Source of the DNA: Eubacteriales bacterium
Lineage (GTDB): Bacteria; Bacillota_A; Clostridia; Lachnospirales; Lachnospiraceae
Assembly: GCA_030527765.1 (NCBI GenBank)
Contig: JAUNAE010000106.1
Span: 1-10,330 of the forward strand
DNA: 10,330 nucleotides
Direction of reading: 5' to 3'
Part shown: positions 616-10,024 of the stretch, one piece after another
Layout: every line of letters starts with the position of its first letter
Numbering within the stretch: the stretch's first letter is position 1
Notes under the pieces: model-generated
What the model was told of the DNA's origin: nothing
The model's database searches: none
What the model saw: only the letters and a program-made list of their open reading frames with translations
Program-made: the position numbers and the translations under genes

Positions 616-2238
616 TTATTTTCCAACCTGTTCTCTCACCTGACAAAACAGCTCGTATTCCAGAGCATAGAGCTTATCTTCTGCTCCGAGAATCACATCT
701 TCCAGTTCTTTCAGTTCCTGGGTAATGTAGCGCTCTGCATTGGTGAGAGTCTGTTTGCGGACATAATTCTCCGGAACCAGTTCCTTGAAGGAGTTTGTGA
801 CTTCAATGGAATAACCGAAGACACGATTGAATTTGACACGAAGCGTCTTGATTCCGGTCTTCTCCCGCTCTCTCGCTTCCAGTTCGGACAGCCATTTCTT
901 GCCGTCGGTTCTGGATCGGCGATACTGATCGACGGTCTCATTGAATCCTTCACGGATGATTCCTCCCTCTTTCTGAGCAAGGGGCGGATCTTCCGCAATG
1001 GCAGACTGGATCAGTTCGGTAAGATCTGCGAGTTCATCCATATCTTCATTGATCTGCTGAAGAAGCGGAGAAGAAAAATCCTTCAGAATCTGCTTAATCG
1101 GCGGAAGCATCTGAATGGAGGAGGCGAAACAGATCAGGTCTCTTGGATTGGCGGACTGATAGCTGATTCGACTGATGAGACGCTCCATATCATAGATCGG
1201 TCCAAGATATTCCCGGATTTCGTCTCGAAGCATCGGGTTCTTGTTCAGCTCTTCCAGAGCCTCCAGACGATTTTCAATCTCTTCACTTCGAATCAGAGGC
1301 TGTTCCACATAGGTACGAAGCGTACGTGCCCCCATGGCGGTTCGGGTTTTGTCAAGAACCCAGAGGAGGGAACCTCTCTTCTGCTTCTCACGGAGGGTTT
1401 CTACAAGTTCCAGGTTACGACGGCTGGAACTGTCAATAAGCATAAACGTCTCAGCCGTATACGGGCGAATGGATGTCATGTGAGCCAGAGAGGTTTTCTG
1501 CGTCTCTTTCAGATAAAGGAACAGAGCACCGGAGGCAATCACTCCTGCATCGTAATCGCTGATGCCAAGACCTTCCAGAGCGGTCACGTGAAAATGATCC
1601 TTGAGCGTTTCCTGACATTTTTCATCATCAAAATACCAGGATTCCAGCTGGAAGAAACAGATTTTCAGGCGGTCCTTCAGATCTGCCACATCAATGCCGC
1701 TCATGAGAAAAGCTTCATTATAGATAATCTCTGCAGGGGCAAATTTGTTGATTTCATCGAGAAGTTTTCCCGCCTGATCCACTTCTGTGACGAAGCAGTC
1801 TCCTGTAGAAATATCAGCAATGGCACAGCCGAATTTGTCTTCCAGGCAAACGATAGACATGAGGTAATTGTTCTTGCCATCCTCCAGAACCATTCCGTCC
1901 AGAGCGGTTCCCGGAGTAATGACACGGATGACTTCTCTCTTTACCAGACCTTTGGCCTGTTTTGGATCTTCCATCTGTTCACAGATGGCAACCTTGTGTC
2001 CCAGAGCAATCAGCCGGTCAATGTAGTTCTGAGCAGAATGAAAAGGAATACCGCACATCGGTGCTCTCTCTTCCAGTCCACAGTCTTTGCCTGTCAGTGC
2101 AATTTCGAGTTCTTTGGATACCACAATGGCATCCTCAAAAAACATTTCGTAGAAGTCACCAAGGCGGTAAAAGAGGATACAGTCTTTGTATTCCTCTTTG
2201 GTTGCCAGGTAATTCTTCATCATAGGAGAAATCGCCAT
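616..2238 (-). CDS. mutS: DNA mismatch repair protein MutS, prematurely terminated (540 residues)
   Basis: MutS recognises mispaired and looped bases and, with MutL, starts mismatch repair in the cytoplasm. The N-terminal mismatch-binding domain (about residues 1-115) holds the Phe-x-Glu motif in GDFYEMFF, where F29 stacks on the mismatch and E31 contacts it. The connector domain (about 125-260), core (from about 265) and clamp (about 395-500) follow, with family blocks such as SYQSANPRDL and FNRVFGYSIEVT. The frame stops at TAA (618-616) after 540 residues, whereas family members are usually about 850-880 long. The rest of the core and the whole ATPase domain therefore lie beyond the stop. 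A product of this length should bind DNA weakly at best and cannot use ATP. The ATG start overlaps the last base of the miaB stop (TAATG). A GGGAGG stands 12 nt upstream inside miaB, so translation is probably coupled. Confidence 0.9.
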   Translation of the reverse strand: MAISPMMKNYLATKEEYKDCILFYRLGDFYEMFFEDAIVVSKELEIALTGKDCGLEERAPMCGIPFHSAQNYIDRLIALGHKVAICEQMEDPKQAKGLVKREVIRVITPGTALDGMVLEDGKNNYLMSIVCLEDKFGCAIADISTGDCFVTEVDQAGKLLDEINKFAPAEIIYNEAFLMSGIDVADLKDRLKICFFQLESWYFDDEKCQETLKDHFHVTALEGLGISDYDAGVIASGALFLYLKETQKTSLAHMTSIRPYTAETFMLIDSSSRRNLELVETLREKQKRGSLLWVLDKTRTAMGARTLRTYVEQPLIRSEEIENRLEALEELNKNPMLRDEIREYLGPIYDMERLISRISYQSANPRDLICFASSIQMLPPIKQILKDFSSPLLQQINEDMDELADLTELIQSAIAEDPPLAQKEGGIIREGFNETVDQYRRSRTDGKKWLSELEAREREKTGIKTLRVKFNRVFGYSIEVTNSFKELVPENYVRKQTLTNAERYITQELKELEDVILGAEDKLYALEYELFCQVREQVGK

Positions 2239-3809: not shown

Positions 3810-3843
3810 TAGAGTTCTATCCGATCACTCAAATAGAACTCTA
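3810..3843 (-). terminator. Hairpin terminator after the 50-codon ORF and the fibre operon
   Basis: A perfect 11-bp stem (TAGAGTTCTAT / ATAGAACTCTA) closes a 12-nt loop. On the minus strand it is followed by a moderately U-rich tail (TTATTACTATT). It lies 34 nt past the stop of the small ORF and just before the miaB promoter, so it separates the two transcription units. The stem is AT-rich and the U-tract is interrupted, so efficiency may be modest. Confidence 0.65.
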
Positions 3844-3877: not shown

Positions 3878-4030
3878 TTAATCTTCGATACCATCTTGTG
3901 TATCCTCGATTATTTCATTAAGAATTGTTTTCGCAGTCTCGATATCGTTTGCATCCAGTGCTTTTTTTAATGATTTTAACTGACGCATCAGTGAGCGCAA
4001 AAAGCTTTTGAAAACAGCCATTTCTTCCAT
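3878..4030 (-). CDS. Small acidic helical protein of unknown function (50 aa)
   Basis: This short frame begins with ATG at 4030 and ends with TAA at 3880-3878. GGTGGTG lies a few bases upstream as a ribosome site. The product starts MEEMAVFKSFLRSLM. Its N-terminal half is basic and amphipathic (RQLKSLKKAL) and its C-terminal half is acidic (NEIIEDTQDGIED). It has no signal peptide, cysteine or membrane segment, so a cytoplasmic helical-hairpin protein is likely. I recognise no family. It sits 57 nt after the adhesin gene and is followed by a hairpin terminator. It could be the last cistron of the fibre operon, or be transcribed from the promoter-like sequence directly upstream. A regulatory role for the locus would be speculation. 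Confidence 0.6.
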   Translation of the reverse strand: MEEMAVFKSFLRSLMRQLKSLKKALDANDIETAKTILNEIIEDTQDGIED

Positions 4031-4087: not shown

Positions 4088-7012
4088 TCAATATCCGGAT
4101 TGTAAAATTTCTTCGTATTCTGTGGTATCTGACAGTATCAGAGGAATTTTATTGATGCGGATGTGATTGTGGTGATATCCCTCCCAGCAGGTCTTCTCAT
4201 TGGTGAATTGAAGGGATGCAGCAGGGATGGTTTCTGTCAGAATCACTTCTCCTGCCAATGTGGCGGCACTGTTTCCGGTGATCGTGACATTAGAGGAAAG
4301 TGCTTTGAGATCTTTGAGTTTATAATCCAGTACGTTCTCTTCTGTGACAGTGTATGTTCCGAGTGGAACGTTCGAAATTACAGTTTCAAGTACTGCAAGA
4401 TCTCCTTCGGTTCCATACTGTCCCTGACGGAAACAAATTGATGCTGCATAGTCATGAGACGTGCCTCGCTCATCGGTCCCTTTGACATCGAATAGAAACG
4501 TAGGATTTCCATGAGCCCACAAAATGTCAGAGTCTTTGATTACTTTTTGAATACGGATTTCCCCGGTCAAAAGAGGTGTGGGATCTACCGGCAGGTTGGT
4601 TAGAACCGGATTACTCTCCTGCTCTTCAGTTCTTCCTCTACGAGTGATGGATACAGAAGCCGTATTTCGTACTCTCCAGATACTGCCCTCGTAAGGACGC
4701 AGGTCCAGAGTATCCTTGATTTTTACATGGAATTCGAAGTGATACGTATTGTCATAGAAGGATTCCTTGGATAACCATGCCTCTTTTCCGGAAATGGTAA
4801 GTTCCTGTCCGGAGACATGGAAACGGAATCGTTCTGTGACATTACGGTTTCCATCTGTAAATACCTGGAAAGAATCTTCTTCTACTGTCAGATCCTCGGG
4901 TATAACATCCCTCACTGTGTAGGAATTGTAATAAAATTGGGAATTCTCTCCGGGAACTGTGTGAGACAAGGTATAGACATAGGATTCGTCTCTTTCGGAA
5001 AGGGTGTTTTCTGTCACTAGTATTTCATCGAAATCAGAAACTTGTTTGATGATCGGCGCCAGAGAAACCATGCCGAGACGTTTGAAATAGAGGCCCTGCC
5101 AGTTCTGAACGACAGAACCGCTGCTGTTCATGACTGAATAATCTTGGGCGTTACCGGAGTAATCCTTCTTCCACACATAATAGTTTCCTGTAGAGACGGG
5201 GAGATTTTGGTAGGTGAACCGGTATTGCTCAAAAGAGTTTCCGAAGCGGAACAACAGGTGATTGGAGTTGTAATTTGCCTGTACCCAGTTGGCTGTAACA
5301 GAATCATTGATGCGATTTCCCACTCGCTGAATCTCAAAAGGTGATGTGAATGCGAGGCGGTCAGGATCTTTGTACAGAACACAGTCATTGCTTACATAAA
5401 CCTGGTCCACGTCACTGAGTATGGACAGTGTCTGGGCAATATCAATATCTGAAAAGGTGGCATACCCTTTGACTGTCATGGGCTTTTGGGTTTCATGATC
5501 CAGGAATTGCATATCCACCGTGATATTTTTGAGGTTTGCGATACTGACACCGATCAACCTGGAACTGACAAGGAAAAAGCCAAGTTCCGGATCTCCATTC
5601 AGAGAATATTCTTCCCAGTCTTTGACTCGAAGAATTAAGTCCACTTCTCTTCCATTATATTGTCCCACTCTGCGGTAAATGGCTCCGATTTGTCCTTTCA
5701 GACCGGCAGATGTAAGTGGAATGACCGTATTCTCACCGTTTACGAAAGGCGATCCTCCGAAGGTCTCAGAAGTGGTATAGTTCGTGTACCATTTCGGACG
5801 AAAACTGTAGCTTCCATCTTGTCCTTCAAAGGTGTTCGGATCTACTGCAGGGAGCTGATTTTTTGCCAGATAAGAATCATTGTTCTGATTACTTTCACTT
5901 ATCAGAGTGTTTCCGTAGGCAAGCCGTACCTGCGAACAAATGCCATACTGGTCACAGTAATAGAACTTTCCGTCGATCGTGATTCCCGCATTGGTTGTCA
6001 GCATGCCGCCGGAAGGATCAAAATAGTGAGGAAGCCCATCGATCACCTGATATCCGGTCATTTGCTGAAAGGTTTTGGGATCGTAATAGCGATAACGAAA
6101 ATGAAAATCGTTTACATCATTTAGATCCATTTCCTGGGATGTGTAGGCGGTTTTCAGCCATCCGCTGACCAGCGCCCCGTTCTTTTCCGCGTAATAGCGG
6201 TTCCCGTTTGCGGAAAAACTTCCGTCTATGTAGTATTTGCCATTGACATAATAGCGGTAAACTTTGTCCTTATCCAGATGAAGCCCCTGAAGGGAAGAAC
6301 TGCCCGTATCGGTACTCAGCTTAGCACCATGTGCATTCTCACGGGAAATAGAGTCATGCAGGTAATTGGCAGGATTTTCTCCGGCAGCGACCATGAATGC
6401 GATTTCTTCTCCGTCACTTAGGAGATCCTCCCCATCGGTCAGAAGATCCGTATCCGCGTCCTCTTCTAGTGTATTCTCTTCTCCGCTCAGGTTATCCTCC
6501 GGTAAAAGCAGGGAATCCGGCAGCAGAAACGGTTCAGAATCTGCAGGAACTGCATCGGCATCATTCTCAAGTGAAGCTTCTGCAGATTCGGATGGATCGG
6601 AAGAATCTGACAAGTCAAAGCATTCAGGAGGATCTTGTATTGCCGATGAATTTGACCAGTCAGATGAATCTTGATTTTCCGATACAGCTGGGAAATCCGC
6701 CTGATCAGAAAATTGTGAAGAACCAAAAGAATCCGATTCATCAGGAAGCCCAGAGGAGTCCACGATTCCTGTAGTACCTTGGGAATTCCAAGTATCCTCG
6801 TATTCTGCTTCAGAAACAGTGTAATCGGTATTTTCCGAAGACGGTTCCTCAGAGAAATTCGTCGTTATAGGCACTTCCGTATCAGCAAAAGAAACACTGT
6901 TATACAGGGATTCTGCTGCAAGTTCTCTTCCGGTATCATCGGAGGCTGAAATGAGAGATGTTCCAGACAACAATAAAGCCAAAGTCAGTGCTGTCAGTTT
7001 TTTATATTTCAT
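4088..7012 (-). CDS. Large secreted adhesin with cell-wall-binding repeats and isopeptide-type pilin domains (974 aa)
   Basis: Probably a surface adhesin or fibre-associated protein. A signal peptide covers residues 1 to about 23 (KYKK, then LTALTLALLLSG, then a SASD cut region). Residues about 45-205 are low-complexity and rich in Ser, Asp and Glu, likely an extended stalk. Residues about 250-362 hold aromatic and Gly-rich cell-wall-binding (CW_binding_1-like) repeats such as VNGKYYIDG, NGNRYYAEKNGALVSGW and IDGKFYYCDQYG. Residues about 380-650 are a beta-rich region I cannot assign. Residues about 650-790 resemble an isopeptide-forming fimbrial domain, with candidate K656 (PIIKQV), D702 (RDVIP) and N783 (RNTASV). 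Residues about 817-939 resemble a CnaB/prealbumin-like domain, with K823, E890 or E891 (YTVTEEN) and N938 (FTNEK). There is no C-terminal sortase motif or membrane helix, so wall attachment probably relies on the repeats. The start has a strong AAAGGAGG and overlaps the previous gene by 11 nt. Confidence 0.85.
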   Translation of the reverse strand: MKYKKLTALTLALLLSGTSLISASDDTGRELAAESLYNSVSFADTEVPITTNFSEEPSSENTDYTVSEAEYEDTWNSQGTTGIVDSSGLPDESDSFGSSQFSDQADFPAVSENQDSSDWSNSSAIQDPPECFDLSDSSDPSESAEASLENDADAVPADSEPFLLPDSLLLPEDNLSGEENTLEEDADTDLLTDGEDLLSDGEEIAFMVAAGENPANYLHDSISRENAHGAKLSTDTGSSSLQGLHLDKDKVYRYYVNGKYYIDGSFSANGNRYYAEKNGALVSGWLKTAYTSQEMDLNDVNDFHFRYRYYDPKTFQQMTGYQVIDGLPHYFDPSGGMLTTNAGITIDGKFYYCDQYGICSQVRLAYGNTLISESNQNNDSYLAKNQLPAVDPNTFEGQDGSYSFRPKWYTNYTTSETFGGSPFVNGENTVIPLTSAGLKGQIGAIYRRVGQYNGREVDLILRVKDWEEYSLNGDPELGFFLVSSRLIGVSIANLKNITVDMQFLDHETQKPMTVKGYATFSDIDIAQTLSILSDVDQVYVSNDCVLYKDPDRLAFTSPFEIQRVGNRINDSVTANWVQANYNSNHLLFRFGNSFEQYRFTYQNLPVSTGNYYVWKKDYSGNAQDYSVMNSSGSVVQNWQGLYFKRLGMVSLAPIIKQVSDFDEILVTENTLSERDESYVYTLSHTVPGENSQFYYNSYTVRDVIPEDLTVEEDSFQVFTDGNRNVTERFRFHVSGQELTISGKEAWLSKESFYDNTYHFEFHVKIKDTLDLRPYEGSIWRVRNTASVSITRRGRTEEQESNPVLTNLPVDPTPLLTGEIRIQKVIKDSDILWAHGNPTFLFDVKGTDERGTSHDYAASICFRQGQYGTEGDLAVLETVISNVPLGTYTVTEENVLDYKLKDLKALSSNVTITGNSAATLAGEVILTETIPAASLQFTNEKTCWEGYHHNHIRINKIPLILSDTTEYEEILQSGY

Positions 7013-8189
7013 GTCGGTCCCTCCTTTTTCGGAATAGAATCCAGCCGGTCGATGTCATTCCAAGAATGAGAAGCACTGCCCAGCATACAAGGGGAGTCTC
7101 ATCTCCTGTTTTGACCGGATTTGATCCGGAGGATCCGCCTCCGCCTCCGAATTCTCCCGTTCCCGGATCCGGGGTGATAGAACTGTTAGGTACTTTCACA
7201 CTATATGTCCAGACAACTTCCGCAGAACGTTTGGCGTAGGTGTTCGTTAGCGTTTTCGGGACGGTAATGGTGTATGCCATTTCTCCGGTCTCTCCCGGTG
7301 CAAACACCCCAAGAGAAATTCCTTTTATCAGCTCTTCTGCCTTCAGAGTGCCGTCGTAGATTTTGTTGCGATTGTACCGAATGGTCAGATGCAGTGCTTC
7401 GAGAAGCTCTTGCTGCTTCTGATCCGCAGAATCATATCCCGTATGGAAAAAGAGCTCTACAGAATTCTTCGAGGAATTTTGAATGGAGGCCTTATCACTG
7501 TAGGAAACTCCGGGCATGAGGCGTTCGAAGTTTCGGAAGAAATCTTCCTCCTGCAGTACAAGCTTTCCGGAATCCCCTTCATACTCTACCCGGAACAGCA
7601 CAGGACGGGAATCCGGCAGCAGAGAATTGTCCGTCTCGTGGACACAATCCTCAATAGGCATATCGCCCCATGGATTTTCTGAATTAAAATCCGGGGTAAA
7701 AGCTTCTGCCTGAATGGCTTCTGCCCGAAGATCCACAGAAATGACGTTTCCGGACTCAGCTTCTGTGAGTTCTGCAGGAATGAACAGTCCTCGGAAAAGG
7801 TCTACAGAAGAACTTTTTTTCAAAATATTTGTATAATAGTAATAGGCTCCAATCTTCTTCCATCCTTTCTGAACATCTTCTAGATCGGAATCATTCAGAA
7901 TCACATCCCCAAAGAACGTGACAGACGTTCGTACATAGCAATCCTCTCCCAGATTTTTGATTCGCGGAATCTTAGAAATATGGTCTCCCGGAAGAACAAT
8001 CTGATGATTACGGAACGGAACTTCCTTATTATTCTGTAGTTCATATTCCTGAAGATCAATATGTACATCCCCGGTGGAAATCCGGTTCACCGTAGAAACC
8101 TCCTGCTTTTCCGAGGCTGCAGTTCCGATCAGGGAACATTGCAAAATGAAAAAACAGCAAAGAAGGAACCGTTTGATATTCTTTTTCAT
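7002..8189 (-). CDS. TasA-like protein with C-terminal sortase-type wall anchor (395 aa)
   Basis: Likely the wall-attached base or tether of the fibre. The signal peptide is residues 1 to about 25 (KKNIKRF, hydrophobic core, GTAAS). Residues about 36-165 look like a TasA/camelysin-type domain (ISTGDVHIDLQEYE, LPGDHISKIPRIKNLGEDCYVR, WKKIGAYYYYTN). A second related beta-rich domain spans about 195-335 and ends FAPGETGEMAYTITVP. A Gly/Ser linker (about 347-356) leads to the sorting-signal-like NPVKTGDE, a hydrophobic helix (about 367-385) and the basic tail FRKRRDR. PVKTG is a variant of LPXTG, and no sortase is encoded in the window. I chose the ATG at 8189 because an AGGAGG lies 5-6 nt upstream. 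The in-frame GTG at 8195 falls inside that ribosome site. It starts 12 nt after the preceding stop. The tether role is inferred from the anchor and the neighbours. Confidence 0.85.
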   Translation of the reverse strand: MKKNIKRFLLCCFFILQCSLIGTAASEKQEVSTVNRISTGDVHIDLQEYELQNNKEVPFRNHQIVLPGDHISKIPRIKNLGEDCYVRTSVTFFGDVILNDSDLEDVQKGWKKIGAYYYYTNILKKSSSVDLFRGLFIPAELTEAESGNVISVDLRAEAIQAEAFTPDFNSENPWGDMPIEDCVHETDNSLLPDSRPVLFRVEYEGDSGKLVLQEEDFFRNFERLMPGVSYSDKASIQNSSKNSVELFFHTGYDSADQKQQELLEALHLTIRYNRNKIYDGTLKAEELIKGISLGVFAPGETGEMAYTITVPKTLTNTYAKRSAEVVWTYSVKVPNSSITPDPGTGEFGGGGGSSGSNPVKTGDETPLVCWAVLLILGMTSTGWILFRKRRDRHEI

Positions 8190-8201
8190 AAGCACCTCCT
8201 G

Positions 8202-8753
8202 TCAGACAGATTCCGCCCGGAGAAAAGCATTCCAGGCTGTCTGATAATCCGGGTAATCCTCTGCCTGAATAGATTCCTCGTAGATCGTGATCTCAAAATC
8301 TTTTGCGTAGAAGAATGATTCTTCCGTTGCTTTTCGGGAATCCAGAGTAAAAGAAGTAAAAAGAGGCGTCGTGGATGCTCCGGGGGCCAGCGGGTTCTTG
8401 TAGTAATAGTAACCATCGGATTTTAGTGTCCAGTTCGTTAGATCCAGATTGTGAAGTACAACCAGATTTCCAATATCTGAATTCGAATAGAGAATTCTTG
8501 CCCGGACATAGCAGCTGACATTTCCTTCTTCTGAGGAATTCTGTACAGTCACCTTCTTCTCGAAGGTGGGATTTTCATTCGGAGGAACCGGTGTCGTTTC
8601 AGGAAACTCTTCCTCGATTGTGGAAGTCTGATGGCCCGGTTTGCAATGATTCAAGGCTTCATCCCGATCCGTCAAATAAGCCGATGTGCCGCCGATGGAC
8701 AGGCATACAGTGAGAAGCAGAATGCCTCCGGCGGATATCCAATGAAATTTCAT
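8202..8753 (-). CDS. TasA/camelysin-like secreted protein, minor subunit (183 aa)
   Basis: A small secreted protein of the SipW-dependent type. The N-terminus has a short charged start, a hydrophobic stretch (ISAGGILLLTVCLSIGG) and TSA|YLTDRDEALN. This matches the SipW-cognate signal region, in which cleavage precedes an aromatic residue followed by L/F-x-D; cleavage after A25 is likely. The mature part carries features seen in this group: EEEFPE, then KKVTVQNSSEE-NVSCYVRAR, then W-DGYYYYKNPLAPGASTTPLF, which is a repeating beta-sandwich pattern. Cys37 and Cys81 remain in the mature chain. A GGGGGTGA ribosome site precedes the ATG. It lies between the first TasA-like gene and the anchored protein, downstream of a hairpin, so it may be made in smaller amounts as a minor subunit or adaptor, comparable in position to accessory fibre proteins. 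That role is inferred from context. Confidence 0.82.
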   Translation of the reverse strand: MKFHWISAGGILLLTVCLSIGGTSAYLTDRDEALNHCKPGHQTSTIEEEFPETTPVPPNENPTFEKKVTVQNSSEEGNVSCYVRARILYSNSDIGNLVVLHNLDLTNWTLKSDGYYYYKNPLAPGASTTPLFTSFTLDSRKATEESFFYAKDFEITIYEESIQAEDYPDYQTAWNAFLRAESV

Positions 8754-8771
8754 AAGGTCACCCCCTGATCA

Positions 8772-8814
8772 TTAGACATCAGGCTGCACAAAATGCAGGA
8801 ATCCTGATGTCTAA
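8772..8814 (-). promoter_or_regulatory. Intercistronic hairpin between the two TasA-like genes
   Basis: A perfect 12-bp outer stem (TTAGACATCAGG / CCTGATGTCTAA) encloses, across a 4-nt bulge, a 5-bp inner stem (CTGCA / TGCAG) with a 5-nt loop. It begins 25 nt after the stop of the upstream gene. On the minus strand it is followed by TGATCAGGGGG, not by a U-run, so it is not a standard intrinsic terminator. A role as a 3'-end stabiliser or processing site that raises the level of the upstream subunit is an inference. Confidence 0.7.
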
Positions 8815-8839
8815 ATGTACATCTTATCTGTTTTTTGAA

Positions 8840-9487
8840 TCAGTCCTTGTCAGAGGTGCTCTGAGGAGGATTCTGTTTCAGATATTTTGCGTATGCAGCT
8901 TCCGCCTGTTCCGGAACAGTTTCTTTGTTGTCACCGGTGTTCGCAGACTGGATTGCATAGGCATGAAGTGGAATGGTAATCGTCTCTCCATCCATCTGAC
9001 CTTCGATGAGATTGACAAATTTTACCTTCTCAAATAATGGGGAGGTTGTTTTGCCGGGCTTCAGAATCTCATTGTAAGCGTAAAAATACGTAACCGCTTC
9101 ATTCGTCTGCGTGGTATTCAGAAGCGTCCACTTCTTCGATGCGTCAAAGGAGAAAAGATCGGTCAGTGTGGCATCCTTTCGATTGCCTGCTGTATCGGCG
9201 GTGGCAACGACTGCTCTCGGAATACTTACTTCCAGGTAAACATAGGAATCATTGATACCGGTGTTCACGATCTGTGGGTCTTTGGCAACTTCGGAATTCG
9301 GTGTCAGACTCTTGTTCTCTTCCGGTTTCCAGTTCGGCTCCTCCAGATCAATAGTAACCTTGCCGATGGTAAAATCGTTGTCCGCAGTATCGTAATCCGT
9401 CAAGTAAGAATAGGTACTGCCTGTGAAGATCATAAGTGCAGCAGCTGCAATGACCGCCGGTTTCAAAATAGATTTTTTATTTTTCAT
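8840..9487 (-). CDS. TasA/camelysin-family fibre subunit (215 aa)
   Basis: Probably the major secreted subunit of the locus. The N-terminus is basic (KNKKSILK), then hydrophobic (AVIAAAALMIFTG), then STYS|YLTDYDTADNDFTIGKV. This is the SipW-type signal layout, with cleavage likely between S27 and Y28. The mature protein begins with the family pattern FTIGKVTIDLEEPNW. It continues with KDPQIVNTGINDSYVYLEVSIP, WTLLN, AVTYFYAYNEILKPGKTTSPLFEKVKF and IPLHAYAIQS, the usual TasA/CalY beta-sandwich blocks. The C-terminus is hydrophilic (PPQSTSDKD) with no anchor. The gene overlaps the signal peptidase gene by 11 nt and has AAAGGA before its ATG, so synthesis is probably coupled to its own peptidase. 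In Bacillus, TasA forms biofilm fibres and related camelysins were described as proteases; fibre formation is the better guess here because of the operon. Confidence 0.88.
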   Translation of the reverse strand: MKNKKSILKPAVIAAAALMIFTGSTYSYLTDYDTADNDFTIGKVTIDLEEPNWKPEENKSLTPNSEVAKDPQIVNTGINDSYVYLEVSIPRAVVATADTAGNRKDATLTDLFSFDASKKWTLLNTTQTNEAVTYFYAYNEILKPGKTTSPLFEKVKFVNLIEGQMDGETITIPLHAYAIQSANTGDNKETVPEQAEAAYAKYLKQNPPQSTSDKD

Positions 9488-9917
9488 AGACGAATCCTTT
9501 CCTGAGAAAAATCAAAATAAAAATCGCCAGGAGGCAGAGGGATATCGGATGACGTCCTGCTGCAATCAGGTAACCTATCAGGGGAATAGATAAACGAACA
9601 GTTCCAATGATCTGATTCTCTTGAACCCTTGAGAAATCTTCCGCAGCGTTGGCGTCTCCTTTTGTGGTGATGCCATCTTCCGAGATTTCCATAATGCGAT
9701 GGGTGATTCTTGAAGTGCCCTTTTGGAATGTAATAATGTCGGAAACTTCCGGTTTGCGTTCTCGAAGATCCACGACAACCATACTTCCTGTAGAAATGGC
9801 AGGCTCCATAGAACCGGACATCACAGTATAAATTCTGTAATGGGTGGAAAAAAAGAAGAGAAAAGATATGAAAAGAATTGCGAGCAGAAATGATAGAATT
9901 TTACGGATATAGATCAT
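9477..9917 (-). CDS. sipW: Signal peptidase I, SipW / ER type
   Basis: A membrane-bound peptidase that removes signal peptides, in this family from TasA-like exported proteins. From the ATG at 9917 it has 146 residues. An N-terminal membrane helix (IRKILSFLLAILFISFLFFF) is followed by the box with the catalytic serine, VMSGSMEPA, where the second Ser is the nucleophile. Next comes SRITHRIMEI, with His in place of the Lys of ordinary bacterial enzymes, which marks the ER-type. The GDANAAED box supplies the acidic residues. A second hydrophobic segment (HPISLCLLAIFILIFL) ends the protein. Start choice: the frame is open to a TTG at 9947, but a strong GGGAGG at 9936-9931 lies inside that extension. 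The ATG at 9917 is 13 nt after it and overlaps the stop of the leader ORF (TGATG). It is the first recognisable gene of the fibre operon. Confidence 0.9.
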   Translation of the reverse strand: MIYIRKILSFLLAILFISFLFFFSTHYRIYTVMSGSMEPAISTGSMVVVDLRERKPEVSDIITFQKGTSRITHRIMEISEDGITTKGDANAAEDFSRVQENQIIGTVRLSIPLIGYLIAAGRHPISLCLLAIFILIFLRKGFVYEK

Positions 9918-10024
9918 CAGGATATGCTTACCTCCCGGCTTAAACAATAGAAATGAAAATCGAATTTGCGGGAAAGCATCGGAGGGGACCTACCACCGGG
10001 AGTATACGAAAAATGACAGAACAT
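9917..10024 (-). CDS. Possible leader peptide ORF (35 aa) coupled to the signal peptidase gene
   Basis: An ATG at 10024 stands 5 nt after a near-perfect ribosome site AAAGGAG (10036-10030). The frame runs 35 codons to TGA (9919-9917), whose last base is the first base of the sipW ATG. The product begins MFCHFSYTPGG and has no domain, signal peptide or membrane segment that I recognise. Codon content does not prove it is a protein. Translation may serve mainly to carry ribosomes through the leader and to open the sipW ribosome site, which can pair with an upstream copy of its complement inside this ORF. It may also be chance. Confidence 0.45.
   Translation of the reverse strand: MFCHFSYTPGGRSPPMLSRKFDFHFYCLSREVSIS
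9932..10002 (-). promoter_or_regulatory. Potential RNA pairing that hides the sipW ribosome site
   Basis: In the minus-strand transcript CTCCCGG (10002-9996) is the exact complement of CCGGGAG (9938-9932). The latter overlaps the GGGAGG ribosome site of sipW. The 7-bp, GC-rich helix could be extended by one G-U pair and would close a loop of about 57 nt inside the leader ORF. Ribosomes translating that ORF would pass through both arms. The complementarity is read directly; a regulatory effect is inferred. Confidence 0.4.

Follow-up and report, generated by a model that had tools for sequence, protein, structure and literature searches.

Fibres of the TasA type are built from subunits whose N-terminal strand is inserted into the next subunit, the N-terminus of TapA being donated to start the fibre, as described in the accessible parts of two reports (PMC9674648, PMC10151520). 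Polymers of BsaA from Clostridium perfringens, according to the available portion of the source, resist sodium dodecyl sulfate (SDS) and formic acid, arise in recombinant Escherichia coli and are independent of srtB (PMC7395162). For archaeal threads, the accessible text of another report describes strand complementation together with an apparent inter-subunit isopeptide bond (PMC9715654). Here we describe a locus encoding TasA-like proteins in an Eubacteriales bacterium of the family Lachnospiraceae (assembly GCA_030527765.1, contig JAUNAE010000106.1). The whole analysed stretch of 10,330 nucleotides is called the window below. The five-gene set, sipW, tasA1, tasA2, an anchor gene and an adhesin gene, occupies positions 4088-9917 of the minus strand almost without gaps, in agreement with the close spacing given in the initial annotation of this DNA. 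The locus belongs to the known Bsa/TasA type of fibre operon, of which it is a variant, and among the described systems sipW-bsaABCRSD of C. perfringens comes closest.

On balance, we lean towards the view that the locus encodes a wall-tethered adhesive fibre with a donor-strand shaft, a sortase-bound base and a tail-plugged adhesin. Cleavage by SipW would remove the signal peptide of each TasA-like subunit and set free an N-terminal beta strand, which, by homology with TasA, would be inserted into the groove of the next subunit by donor-strand exchange. As the base, the two-domain TasA-like protein would be linked by a sortase to peptidoglycan through its PVKTG motif. The adhesin, which has no wall anchor, would fill the empty groove at the fibre end with the tail following its CnaB domain, and its lectin-like N-terminal domains would be left free for ligand binding. 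Polymerisation, the polarity of the fibre and the placing of the adhesin at its tip and not at its base are our inferences.

Composition of the five-gene set

The sipW product is assigned to TIGR02228 with 87.9 bits (cut-off 51.85), which bears out its identification as a signal peptidase of the endoplasmic reticulum (ER) type. In ER-type signal peptidase I, the Ser-Lys dyad is replaced by Ser-His; residues S44 and H83, as well as D98, are invariant in all 30 SipW open reading frames (ORFs) of the loci.

Two TasA-like subunits had also been proposed, and both were recovered. TasA1 passes the Pfam model M73 (23.9 with a gathering score of 22.5), and the SipW-dependent signal region TIGR04088 (cut-off 19) is present in TasA1 (31.6) and, just above the cut-off, in TasA2 (19.3). 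TasA2 and the anchor gave no match in the M73 scan, and the anchor and the adhesin gave none in the TIGR04088 scan. Both subunits resemble BsaA but do not reach the cut-off of its family TIGR04090 (34.6 for TasA1 and 48.5 for TasA2, with a cut-off of 60 bits); they probably work like the BsaA family without being filed as its members. The motif Y[FL][ST]D..xxxN.F..G is common to the fibre subunits at the donor-strand site. The jelly-roll fold of TasA was recognised in the set and is putative for TasA1 and TasA2 themselves, the link to TasA being reached by fold comparison alone: the sequence search of solved structures gave no match for TasA1 and chance matches only for the alignments A3 (TasA1) and A4 (TasA2), not reaching TasA, and TasA is not among the best 50 Foldseek matches listed. 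The TasA interface residues F29, P62, F200 and Q232, as given in the accessible part of the published work, correspond by spacing only to L29, P63, F152 and Q180 of TasA1.

The BsaA-family similarity of the subunits would also suit a plain BsaA/TasA biofilm-matrix locus as in C. perfringens, with the adhesin and the anchor as accessory matrix proteins and without a pilus tethered to the cell. The polymers of BsaA are found mainly outside the cells, and bsaB and bsaC are dispensable for polymerisation, according to the portion of the report available (PMC7395162). We consider such a locus unlikely, since a sorting signal on the TasA-like anchor protein in 35 of 39 loci points to tethering.

Sorting signals were recognised by our own rule, namely, an xPxTG-like motif, a hydrophobic stretch and a basic tail. 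By this rule none was found in TasA1 (0/36), TasA2 (0/33) or the adhesin (0/30), and each anchor-bearing locus encodes one sortase-type substrate. Curated models are stricter: at E<=0.01, LPXTG_anchor matched one, srtB_target two and EF0750_LPXTG three of 25 anchors, and none of the three matches the anchor protein of the window. No match to a sortase was obtained among the seven ORFs scanned in the window, which covers 10.3 kb only. Polymerisation of the shaft by a sortase was rejected, because the subunits carry no sorting signals. The proposed anchored protein with two TasA-like domains was confirmed by its PVKTG signal and domain matches, and its role as the wall-bound base of the fibre and a predicted sortase substrate is well supported. 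In the locus L037, two adjacent ORFs encode the halves of the anchor separately, and L004, L007 and L008 contain an extra short downstream ORF with its own VQTGD sorting signal.

The adhesin role of the 974-aa protein is supported by its predicted fold, and the isopeptide-type domains expected in this large protein were found. The model RrgB_K2N_iso_D2 matches it with 50.9 (cut-off 30), as well as 15 of 18 homologues at E<=0.01, and is followed by the CnaB-like domain; D2 appears to be of the isopeptide-forming type, with the bond itself predicted. Thus, among the roles assigned initially, that of the anchor is well supported and that of the adhesin agrees with the fold, and the division of TasA1 and TasA2 into major and minor subunits stays a suggestion.

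The repeats of the adhesin gave sequence matches to repeat regions of large clostridial toxins and to a 'cell wall-binding repeat protein'. Such wall-binding-type repeats, although below the cut-off in the window protein, and the glucan-binding repeat found in 9/18 homologues would be expected of an independent surface protein, bound to the wall non-covalently and merely co-transcribed with a biofilm-matrix fibre. This alternative seems improbable: in several adhesins encoded at this place, the match to the profile starts only with the later domains, yet the tail with its Asn is kept, and the donor-strand profile described below points to the tail.

Table 1. Position of genes, domains and signals in the window
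Feature	Coordinates	Strand	Remarks
sipW, ER-type (Ser-His) signal peptidase I	9477..9917	-	likely start ATG 9917; ORF reaches TTG 9947
tasA1, TasA/BsaA-like fibre subunit, 215 aa	8840..9487	-	SipW-type signal and N-terminal donor-strand motif YLTD..xxxN.F..G
Stem-loop in the tasA1-tasA2 gap	8773..8813	-	gap of 86 nt; -26.9 kcal/mol, z -2.97; T-run absent
tasA2, second TasA/BsaA-like subunit, 183 aa	8202..8753	-	family matches; alignment A4
Anchor gene, 397-aa ORF	7002..8189	-	two TasA-like domains (residues ~30-185 and 198-338) and C-terminal sorting signal
PVKTG sorting motif of the anchor	7104..7118	-	followed by hydrophobic stretch and RKRR; from sequence
Adhesin, 974 aa	4088..7012	-	signal peptide, disordered acidic linker, repeats, AgI/II-V-like domain, isopeptide D2, CnaB, C-terminal tail
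Wall/choline/glucan-binding-type repeats, residues 241-360	5933..6292	-	PF19127 23.3, below cut-off 27
AgI/II variable-domain / PrgB-like adhesin fold, residues 388-650	5063..5851	-	
RrgB/AgI-II-C2-type isopeptide domain, residues 649-807	4592..5068	-	RrgB_K2N_iso_D2 model and fold
CnaB-like C-terminal domain, residues 815-941	4190..4570	-	part common to most adhesins of the loci
Proposed C-terminal donor strand, residues 946-960	4133..4177	-	Asn 954 invariant in 18/18 homologues
Intrinsic-terminator-like hairpin	3810..3843	-	between adhesin gene and miaB; 15 pairs, 4 of them G-C

The adhesin tail and the joints of the proposed fibre

At the level of the family, the C-terminal tail of the adhesin is conserved as Y.H.D..xN.I and resembles the N-terminal donor strand of the subunits. 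In the monomer model, the tail forms no strand and has low confidence (disordered). It is a good hypothesis that the adhesin plugs into the vacant groove of the fibre via this putative donor strand. The resemblance was tested by turning 141 segments of the TasA-like alignment into one profile each and seeking the best-matching position of every profile in each of 28 adhesins. Four rows cut by contig ends (L001, L019, L022 and L017:8086-9676) and two whose match was limited to the wall repeats of the profile (L017:1-1137 and L016:2723-4432) were left out. With segment 29-41, which represents the donor strand, the tail is the best match in 16 of the 28 adhesins, or in 15 without L086, whose best window is not the tail motif. 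The segments adjoining 29-41 gave counts of 10, 8, 5 and 5, and all others gave 4 or fewer, with a median of 0 and a chance expectation of 0.66. Among 15 further large proteins, chosen by eye from unlabelled ORFs and 13 of them for their ends, the tail is the best match in 7 with segment 28-40 (chance 0.43) and in 4 with segment 29-41. With the protein's own locus left out, it is the best window in L072, L075, L077 and one protein of L070.

Large proteins with von Willebrand factor type A (VWA) domains lie beside sipW and tasA genes in L069, L072, L084 and L087, and that of L072 also has a GBS104-like tip-pilin Ig domain. The ends of these four proteins look alike by eye, the tail being the best donor-profile window only in L072. 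In the large protein L088:9702-13229, the best match is a donor-like window, FSHTDVVENSFKI, located more than 25 residues before the end. Loci L071, L076, L082 and L086 encode a protein of 624-641 aa matched by TasA profiles, with no anchor-like protein recognised; their adhesins end in S/T-[HD]-T-A..x.N.F.

The subunits share a further feature, a trio of Asn, Glu and Lys. No row of A3 (26 rows) or A4 (23 rows) departs from this trio, which is N37, E50 and K69 in TasA1 and N35, E48 and K66 in TasA2. All three residues occur together in 151 of 188 TasA-like ORFs, counting D as well as E at the middle position, vs 123 expected if they were independent, an excess partly explained by kinship. An Asn-Lys isopeptide lock of the joints is thinkable, as a long shot. 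The same fibre might then have covalent joints, in which the donor-strand Asn is joined to the acceptor Lys with Glu as catalyst, the Asn of the adhesin tail likewise, and no pilin sortase takes part. This possibility, which we regard as doubtful, would fit the invariant trio, the resistance and srtB-independent formation of BsaA polymers in E. coli and the archaeal threads cited above. It is weakened by the kinship of the ORFs and by the wider set, where both N and K of the subunits are missing from 14 of 18 anchor-like proteins. Moreover, the pattern N..F..G is widespread in SipW-type signals generally, so the Asn of the trio may serve the strand itself. TasA of B. subtilis presumably has no Asn at position 37; in the class around G399, matches to Pfam M73 were weak (22/247, the best with 39 bits), and no Bacillus TasA was identified from them.

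Several observations weigh against the tethered, tail-plugged fibre favoured here. The tail result depends on the segment: 29-41 is the best of 141 tried, and with 28-41 the count drops to 11/28, a value as high being obtained in 10 of 1000 column permutations. The adhesin counts are not independent, given the kinship of these proteins and a search profile that itself covered the tail. The adhesin of the window fits the donor profile weakly at its tail, its best C-terminal position ranking 8/922 and not being the motif itself, and in 11 of the 15 further proteins the tail is not the best window (ranks 2 to 32). Segment 28-41 points to the tail in 6/15 of these proteins, and 1 of 1000 permutations reaches 6, a control biased by the hand-picking of the proteins, mostly for alike ends. 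Near the clusters, 31 of 205 same-strand ORFs of at least 300 aa contain the tail pattern, compared with 2 of 186 others, the regular expression having been made from these same tails. The donor strand is N-terminal in the subunits and C-terminal in the adhesins, so that the geometry of such a joint is hypothetical. The anchor-like proteins lacking N and K count here as well, as do 7 of 20 further stretches without an anchor bearing a recognised sorting signal and 9 of 38 loci that lie away from contig edges and are without one or more of the five genes.

Distribution among relatives and flanking regions

Preservation of the five-gene set in Lachnospiraceae had been named beforehand as a check, and it was confirmed. 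Among the 38 related loci, found with the anchor profile, 21 contain all five genes in one cluster, and 13 have the gene order of the window (14 counting L037 with its split anchor). Of the 17 incomplete loci, 8 reach a contig edge and 9 do not. The nearest fetched loci by MutS belong to two Blautia metagenome-assembled genomes (76% to L003 and 78% to L010), and in the Blautia loci L002, L003 and L010 the cluster is followed by miaB, as in the window. Out of 299 sampled genomes of the family of G003, 134 match the anchor alignment somewhere; 15 of these, counted by eye, reach 170 bits, and most of the remaining matches cover one domain or just the end. Matches to the BsaA family at E<=0.001 were found in 38 of 391 class-mates, 12 of them exceeding the cut-off. 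The locus L070 (G276) contains two tandem clusters of genes for a large protein, a TasA2-like protein, an LPSTG anchor-like protein, SipW and a BsaA-like protein.

Downstream of the adhesin gene, the terminator-like hairpin is followed by miaB and mutS on the minus strand. A strong promoter had been claimed for the operon; promoter-like matches occur only at chance level. The stem-loop between tasA1 and tasA2 is possibly an mRNA-stability element setting the subunit ratio, and it recalls the predicted terminator after bsaA in C. perfringens. Folding of this gap in the window, L003, L004, L007, L012 and L015 gave z < -2 in four of six cases; these gaps are among the longer ones, and in many other loci the gap is too short for a stem-loop. 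No structured RNA families were detected in the window at gathering scores. An ORF of 50 aa with a plausible ribosome site (3878-4030, minus strand) is located between the adhesin gene and the hairpin; its predicted product is charged and probably helical, and tblastn of the fetched loci gave no match at E<=1. The mutS ORF stops in frame at 616-618 (minus strand) after 540 codons, and MutS of L003 aligns in the same frame through this stop up to the window edge with 78% identity, so that either a broken gene or a sequencing error may be present.

Comparison with known systems

In a wider and rather improbable generalisation, the locus would represent a further kind of Gram-positive pilus across gut Clostridia, with a TasA-type donor-strand shaft, a single sortase-bound base and exchangeable adhesins (AgI/II-like, VWA and other heads) plugged in through a donor-strand copy at their C-terminus, all joints being locked by Asn-Lys isopeptide bonds without a pilin sortase. 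If the assembly proposed for the locus is right, a single motif would show to which TasA-type fibre a given large surface protein belongs, and a testable assembly rule would be available for a little-studied fibre class of gut anaerobes. It would bear on how gut Clostridia may attach to mucus, food particles or each other. In Gram-positives, donor-strand assembly would then include a wall-anchored adhesive pilus in addition to a matrix polymer, and the extreme stability reported for BsaA polymers might find an explanation. Among the papers listed by searches of the open-access literature, which excludes subscription papers and preprints, none dealt with SipW fibres in Lachnospiraceae and none proposed that the adhesin of a TasA-type fibre carries a donor strand at its C-terminus.

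The composition of the locus is not without precedent, contrary to the initial annotation: Bsa-type loci with sipW and several secreted proteins are known, as in C. perfringens according to the accessible part of the source (PMC7395162), and the same kinds of genes are present in L070, which belongs to a genome of the same class. Similar to sipW-bsaABCRSD, the window combines sipW, BsaA-like subunits and further secreted proteins in one operon. It differs by subunits that score below the BsaA family cut-off and by the two-domain anchor, the make-up of BsaB, BsaC and BsaD lying outside this comparison, and its scanned ORFs contain no two-component genes, the region upstream of 10330 being out of view.

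Like tapA-sipW-tasA of B. subtilis, the locus has a SipW of its own and subunits of the TasA fold that carry a strand motif at the N-terminus; it differs by its two subunits, the sortase-type anchored two-domain TasA-like protein and the isopeptide-domain adhesin. No TapA-named family was found among the Pfam and NCBIfam matches of the window proteins at E<=1, and these libraries may hold no such model. The TasA-CalY-CapP system of B. cereus likewise has two TasA-like subunits in a sortase-independent fibre; CapP contains DUF4047, a predicted helical bundle in the portion of the report available (PMC13082335), whereas the accessory proteins of the window are a CnaB-domain adhesin and a wall anchor.

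Sortase-dependent pili of the SpaA, RrgB and EbpB type share with the locus the isopeptide D2 and CnaB domains of the adhesin and the wall anchor, but in the window the sorting signal is confined to one secreted protein and the scanned ORFs contain no sortase. The term 'hybrid pilus' therefore holds for the adhesin stalk and the anchor and not for polymerisation, because only one of the four secreted proteins is sortase-substrate-like. With chaperone-usher pili, for whose ushers and chaperones no match was found in the scanned ORFs, the locus shares by analogy the donor-strand principle and the joining of an adhesin through a strand, the proposed donor strand here being located at the C-terminus of the adhesin.
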